This document shows positions 44,910-45,718 of a stretch of 64,000 nt of DNA, in pieces. Every line of letters starts with the position of its first letter. Position 1 is the first letter of the stretch. Made by a program: the position numbers and the translations under genes. Source of the stretch: Chiridota heheva (lineage: Eukaryota; Echinodermata; Holothuroidea; Apodida; Chiridotidae); contig JAIGNY010000411.1 in assembly GCA_020152595.1 (NCBI GenBank), forward strand, positions 707,501-771,500. The letters run 5' to 3'. The notes beneath the pieces were generated by a model. It saw only the letters and a program-made list of their open reading frames with translations, was not told where the DNA came from and did not search any database.

Positions 44910-45670
44910 GTTGTACGACAGGTTCATAAGAAAGAAGTCTTACCGTCTTGTTGTACAACAGGTTCATAAGAAAGAAGTCTTACGTCTTGTTGTACGACAG
45001 ATTCATAAGAAAGAAGTCTTAACTTTTTGTTGTACGACAGGTTCATAAAAAAGAAGTCTAACCTTCTTGTTGTACGACAGGTTCATAAGAAAGAAGTCTT
45101 ACGTCTTGTTGTACAACAGGTTCATAAGAAAGAAGTCTTACCTTCTTGTTGTACAACAGGTTCATAAGAAAGAAGTCTTACGTCTTGTTGTACGACAGAT
45201 TCATAAGAAAGAAGTCTTACGTCTTGTTGTACAACAGGTTCATAAGAAAGAAGTCTTAACCTTCTTGTCGTACGACAGGTTCATAAGAAAGAAGTCTTAC
45301 AGTCTTGTTGTACAACAGGTTCATAAGAAAAAGTCTTACGTCTTGTTGTACGACAGGTTCATAAGAAAGAAGTCTTAACTTCTTGTTGTACGACAGGTTC
45401 ATAAGAAAGTCTTTTGTATGACAGGTTCATAAGAAAGAAGTCTTACTGTCTTGTTGTACAACAGGTGCATAAGAAGTCTAACCTTCTTGTTGTACAACAG
45501 GTTCATAAGAAGTCTAACCTTCTTGTTGTACGACAGGTTCATAAGAAAGAAGTCTAACCTTCTTGTTGTACAACAGGTTCATAAGAAGTCTAACCTTCTT
45601 GTTGTACAACAGGTTCATAAGAAGTCTAACCTTCTTGTTGTACGACAGATTCATAAAAAAAAAGTCTTAC
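44910..45670 (-). repeat. minisatellite made of dlg exon 3' end plus splice donor
   Basis: About 20 head-to-tail units of 35-40 bp (one ~30 bp unit near 45420) sit in intron 6, directly abutting the functional exon. In the sense direction each unit is ttcttATGAACCTGT, then YGTACAACAAGA, then a donor-like GTAAGAC or GTTAGAC. That is the last ~33 nt of the 48-nt exon plus ~7 nt of intron. Units vary at CG/TG in the GTCGTAC/GTTGTAC position and at the donor: roughly half keep gtaag, others read gttag or are degraded. The unit near the exon carries GTTAG-type donors, while distal units more often have GTAAG. Confidence 0.93.
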
Positions 45671-45718
45671 CTTCTTGTTGTACGACAGGTTCATAAGAAA
45701 GAATGCTATCCTCTGCTC
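45671..45718 (-). CDS. dlg: dlg HOOK exon (ILSYEPVVQQE), source of the adjacent minisatellite
   Basis: Acceptor tctttacag, then GA completing Arg, then AEDSILSYEPVVQQE and a final G before donor gtaagac. It is 48 nt (2 nt, 15 codons, 1 nt). It matches GQEEYVLSYEPVNQQE, which precedes [12 protein letters not shown] in Dlg. The exon's last ~33 nt and the first ~7 intron bases are repeated about twenty times immediately downstream in the sense direction (44910-45670). This copy is the one I take as functional because only it keeps the acceptor and the exon's 5' part. Confidence 0.95.

Follow-up and report, generated by a model that had tools for sequence, protein, structure and literature searches.

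The end of a small dlg coding exon of Chiridota heheva, together with its splice donor, has been copied in tandem into the following intron, and we think it likely that the resulting array is a neutral minisatellite of the 'mirage' type, seeded by chance and tolerated since the donor nearest the exon wins under exon definition. It is probably harmless and without a function of its own: most of the dlg donor copies are weakened, and copies of exon ends follow the sampled donors of other genes at about the background rate, so that no special function, such as the U1 decoy, isoform source or VNTR suggested in the earlier note, needs to be invoked. The array belongs to a kind of structure that is already described, and what is added here are data on its frequency.

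The dlg exon and its array

The dlg exon lies in the window, the whole 64,000-nucleotide stretch of DNA that was analysed. It is 48 nt long and occupies 45671-45718 on the minus strand, flanked by AG at 45719-45720 and GT at 45669-45670, and it encodes the peptide GAEDSILSYEPVVQQE. In an alignment to a PSD-95 sequence, this peptide falls just before the GK exons. The next exon (44392-44493, minus strand; acceptor AG at 44494-44495) starts the GK domain in the same alignment, and the intron between the two, from the donor to the GK exon start at 44493, is 1177 nt. The upstream intron is about 2 kb long, the nearest recognised dlg piece ending near 47879. The stretch from the SH3 to the repeated exon holds three more dlg exon pieces (51586-51651, 50584-50670 and 47879-47914), which match DLG1 linker sequence with E values of 1.8e-5, 1.3e-5 and 0.003, respectively. 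One dlg GK exon, with its true start at 43833, has a single upstream duplicate of its acceptor and head, a decayed copy near 43997.

The last 33 nt of the 48-nt exon are the founding copy of a minisatellite that runs from 45703 to 44894 on the minus strand, with a period of 40 (units 28-41) and 21.1 copies including the exon's own end, as parsed with TRF and manually. The TRF consensus unit, TTCTTTCTTATGAACCTGTCGTACAACAAGAAG|GTAAGAC, consists of 33 exon nt and 7 intron nt, such that the repeat spans the exon/intron boundary and each unit carries the donor; the unit composition and the seeding across the junction are thus as had been proposed from the sequence. The array adjoins the exon in the sense direction, and about 20 units of about 40 bp were correctly anticipated, but it runs to 44894 instead of ending at 44910, and its unit length is not uniform: the 20 added units range from 28 to 41 nt, mostly 36-41, with 36 nt in four. 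The exon tail is matched nearby at 20 of 20 positions, and only one of 200 20-mers of shuffled sequence has a nearby copy, so the array is not a product of chance; in a genome search of the assembly it matches at one locus only. The trinucleotide TTC stands at the intron end of the array (44894-44896, minus strand) and also at the start of the repeated part in the exon (45701-45703), and may reflect a 3-nt microhomology that mediated the first duplication.

Read-through past the true donor reaches an in-frame TGA at 45651-45653 (minus strand), within the first copy and the first stop after the donor, at +17 after the GT. Every transcript spliced from the donor of a copy would contain this codon, and the expectation that use of a downstream donor leads to an early in-frame stop holds. 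A coding repeat, in which the array would be a protein VNTR, is ruled out by this stop and by the 28-41 nt units.

Long repeats are hard to assemble, and excerpts of PMC3087553 mention a mirage that was aberrantly assembled in a draft genome, so the array could in principle be misassembled, with a shorter true duplication falsely expanded or collapsed. The dlg copies are mosaic, however, differing in length and sequence, and similar arrays are found in other contigs, and we regard an assembly artefact as highly improbable.

Elsewhere in the window, two copies of a stretch of about 1.9 kb are found at 1-1870 and 2997-4880, with 97.9% identity over an alignment of 1889 bases that includes repeats. 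Two arrays of the same 19-bp unit, AGTAACATTACCATGTGCT, lie roughly 1 kb from each other, at 34231-34399 and 35191-35286.

Donor strength among the copies

The true donor, AAG|GTAAGA at 45665-45673 (minus strand), scores 10.84 bits on human donor frequencies. GT is kept at the donor place in 17 of the 20 added copies, mostly in a weak context. A single copy, at 45142, equals the true donor (full-strength 9-mer at 45136-45144, minus strand), one scores 8.63 bits (44944), 15 score 6.81 bits or less, and three have no GT at the donor place. An alternative count of two intact 9-mers results from gap placement in one copy with an extra T; the claim in the earlier note that many copies have an intact GTAAG did not survive scoring, with the full donor 9-mer in one of 20 only. 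A further donor-like word, CAT|GTAAGT at 44888, just beyond the array, scores 9.09 bits.

The presence of GT in most copies, one of them at full strength, together with the in-frame TGA after the true donor, would suit a decoy or unproductive-splicing element, in which the copies compete for U1, or serve as donors for TGA-ended transcripts that are degraded, and dlg output is thereby lowered or tuned; units of the human IFI6 (6-16) minisatellite are used as donors according to excerpts of PMC4526556. Against this, 18 of the 20 copies are at least 4 bits weaker than the true donor or have no GT, and such copies occur at about the background rate after the donors of unrelated genes; we consider a decoy element unlikely.

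The donor window of the dlg array varies more between copies than the remainder of the unit (0.161 versus 0.048 differences per site, 3.3 times as much; rank 4 of 40 windows), and the junction has eight variants besides the intact one, plus a deletion. With the full donor surviving in so few copies, this divergence could reflect selection against decoy donors rather than neutrality: a mildly harmful array whose donor copies have been weakened by selection protecting correct splicing. The donor window is also more divergent in the arrays at adducin (0.065 versus 0.025), L015 (0.140 versus 0.062), L045 (0.200 versus 0.143) and MMUT (0.022 versus 0.010), but it is less divergent in five of the ten arrays compared (L069, L154, L157, L034 and PPP2R5); five of the ten had been found through intact donors, which biases these five. 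Twelve arrays had been given for this comparison, L039 and L070 yielding no copies. A general disarming of donors, with five arrays on either side, is not supported, and copies share variants by descent, leaving few independent events; selected disarming at dlg seems to us unlikely, and a neutral minisatellite remains our preferred reading.

Exon-end arrays in other genes

The frequency of exon-end copies was estimated on exons of the myosin-head and SNF2 families, sampled regardless of repeats. For myosin, donor stretches were obtained for 60 of 68 matches, of which 12 were discarded since the donor call was weak or absent, leaving 48, and of 40 acceptor stretches one had no acceptor and 39 were used. 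For SNF2, 33 of 61 rows were taken as exons in sets of 19 and 14, all of which were used for acceptors; the donor was unclear in three and one of these, leaving 16 and 13. A donor was flagged if the last 20 nt of its exon recur within the next ~190 nt, and an acceptor if the exon head recurs upstream.

A tandem copy of the exon tail follows seven of the 77 donors by the p-value test, and five by a strict count (a score of at least 15 and a copy evident when inspected: L039, L045, L069, L070 and L157), L049 and L051 being dropped as short matches that do not span the donor. A two-copy 30-bp repeat seen by eye at the L047 donor was unflagged by the test and is uncounted. The GT donor is kept in the copies of L039 and L157 and in some units of L045 and L069, and is lost in the L070 copy. 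L157, an SNF2-family exon ending ...LLLTGTPLQ and presumably SMARCA-like, has about 4.5 units; its score was taken at the third of its donors, of which the first is probably the true one. Another SNF2-family exon (L154), picked through its own repeated rows and left out of the counts, has 9.9 units of 115 bp at 59-1192; its first copy is out of frame with the conserved motif and some later copies are in frame, and the repeat may be an assembly error.

Among random 20-mers of the window, 48 of 500 are flagged by the same test and 39 of 500 with a score of 15 or more, so that the donors are at background (5/77 versus 39/500, p=0.82), although this baseline comes from a single window, 16% of which is covered by TRF; since the window was chosen for an array, the baseline may be high. 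In the acceptor sample, the exon head recurs upstream at none of 72 acceptors, which is below that same, possibly high, background (p=0.0097 when compared with the strong count and 0.0022 with all flagged 20-mers). Donors and acceptors differ with p=0.059 by the strict count and 0.014 by all flagged cases. When the other dlg exons of the window are added (donors 0/5, the index donor being left out; acceptors 1/7, with a wrong AG taken for one of them, GK1), the comparison becomes 5/82 versus 1/79 (p=0.21). In the genome, an acceptor-like pattern repeated three times has 5456 matches versus 2550 for its reverse, those listed being mostly short-period repeats; acceptor-like words are therefore common in tandem repeats, which counts against an asymmetry. 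Overall, the evidence that the donor/acceptor asymmetry is real is suggestive only. In open-licence papers, covered by searches not aimed at that question alone, we found no report on the frequency of arrays at donors versus acceptors.

When the 1.1-Gb genome was scanned for donor-like words occurring three times with the spacing of a minisatellite, 2446 matches resulted, and a stricter pattern, CAGGTAAGT three times, gave 152; 10 arrays among the matches listed of the former and 16 among those listed of the latter were examined. Three of these 26 start at exon ends that are backed by protein similarity: adducin (L009; E value 1.3e-5, a PDB match), MMUT (L024; 3.4e-8) and PPP2R5 (L033; 2.5e-19). 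Five more have an acceptor and an open frame, with homology unproven (L014, L015, L016, L027 and L034), and the L025 array looks like a kinase exon in repeated form but matches no family. With L017 left out, no exon was seen by eye in the 16 others. The exon contributes 4 of 44 nt to the unit in PPP2R5, 26 of 36 in adducin and 44 of 49 in MMUT, a variation that indicates no fixed register, as random seeding predicts. The number of downstream donors scoring no more than 0.5 bit away from the true site is 24 in adducin (counted over a stretch joined by TRF), four in MMUT and seven in PPP2R5, three arrays that were found through intact donors, and one in dlg.

The donor word as a minisatellite hotspot is unsupported: tripled, CAGGTAAGT has 152 matches in the genome and the reversed pattern 363, despite 7172 occurrences of the single word and 6684 of its reverse. 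Two donor-motif arrays with 36-bp units, L012 and L013, are open in one frame for a stretch; they may be coding and were excluded from the cases. The L013 array (4422-7962) has about 98 units with KVSPPLSAEESG in one frame and is possibly a coding repeat.

Precedents and the probable tolerance of donor arrays

Canestro 2002 is reportedly cited for mirages in lancelets, Turri 1995 is said to have found that the human 6-16 minisatellite gives several splice donors, and a study of potato RdRp reportedly describes intron gain by tandem duplication. The proposal that a minisatellite on an exon/donor junction forms an undescribed class cannot be upheld, as lancelet mirages are the same kind of structure and IFI6 is a further precedent. 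As described in excerpts of PMC3087553 and PMC3902484, mirages are minisatellite-like tandem duplications over intron/exon boundaries, with AG/GT signals in many units, which occur in Adh3, globins, PGBD5 and TnC and are reported not to disturb regular splicing. The dlg array resembles them in spanning the boundary and in the splice signal of many units; it differs in the gene, and in its roughly 21 copies of 40 bp, most of whose donors are weakened. Cephalochordates are the only hosts that these excerpts name; a search of the present genome for the GFP family PF01353, known from lancelets, gave no match, which does not show that the family is absent, and a COX1 search gave none either and hence no mitochondrial marker. 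As far as the excerpts of PMC4526556 go, IFI6 shares with dlg the splice donors carried by minisatellite units, but its extra donors are used for isoforms, whereas dlg read-through meets a stop at once, the TGA of the first copy, such that its extra donors do not extend the open reading frame. Human internal tandem repeats in segmental duplications, as described in PMC2812944, are likewise minisatellites at exon-intron boundaries and can alter splicing, but they vary among recent paralogues and are associated with novel introns, whereas the dlg array is at one locus in the assembly. The Rogers model of intron gain by tandem duplication, as cited in excerpts of PMC3087553, also involves a duplicated piece holding a splice signal; in dlg, however, an old intron is lengthened and no new intron is seen.

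We infer that the array began as a tandem duplication of 40 bp spanning the exon/donor junction, perhaps via the TTC microhomology, and that slippage or unequal exchange may have expanded it to about 21 copies. The original exon, acceptor and donor would have remained as the 5'-most copy, making the array tolerable, and exon definition would favour the donor closest to the acceptor, so that the first copy would be used. Excerpts of PMC9225289 describe five minigenes with two identical CAG/guaagu donors in which, under exon definition, the upstream donor is used exclusively, whereas with acceptors the preference for the upstream site is only weakened. The minigenes treated there as exon-defined had 365-nt introns; with introns of about 2 kb and about 1.18 kb, the 48-nt dlg exon is probably recognised in the same manner, and exon definition is at least plausible for it. 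Three points speak against the neutral reading: the exon is only 48 nt long, the donor window is divergent, and the same excerpts report, for human data overall, a preference for the downstream donor when donor strengths are unmatched.

The rules of PMC9225289 would have donor arrays tolerated and acceptor arrays more harmful, as the sample suggests. We tentatively propose, at somewhat short of an even chance, that tandem duplications span donor junctions unhindered, occurring there at the background rate, and are removed at acceptor junctions; the genome would then hold many natural tests that the donor nearest the acceptor wins under exon definition, while upstream acceptors tend to beat the true one. 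By itself, the dlg array is an oddity within a described class. Should the broader pattern prove true, in which roughly 1 donor in 15 has a tandem copy, with as many as dozens of nearly identical donors following the adducin exon and several following the MMUT and PPP2R5 exons, RNA-seq data from a single animal of this sort would directly reveal how splicing selects between many equivalent donors in natural genes, and in what way exon ends might give rise to new introns or isoforms.
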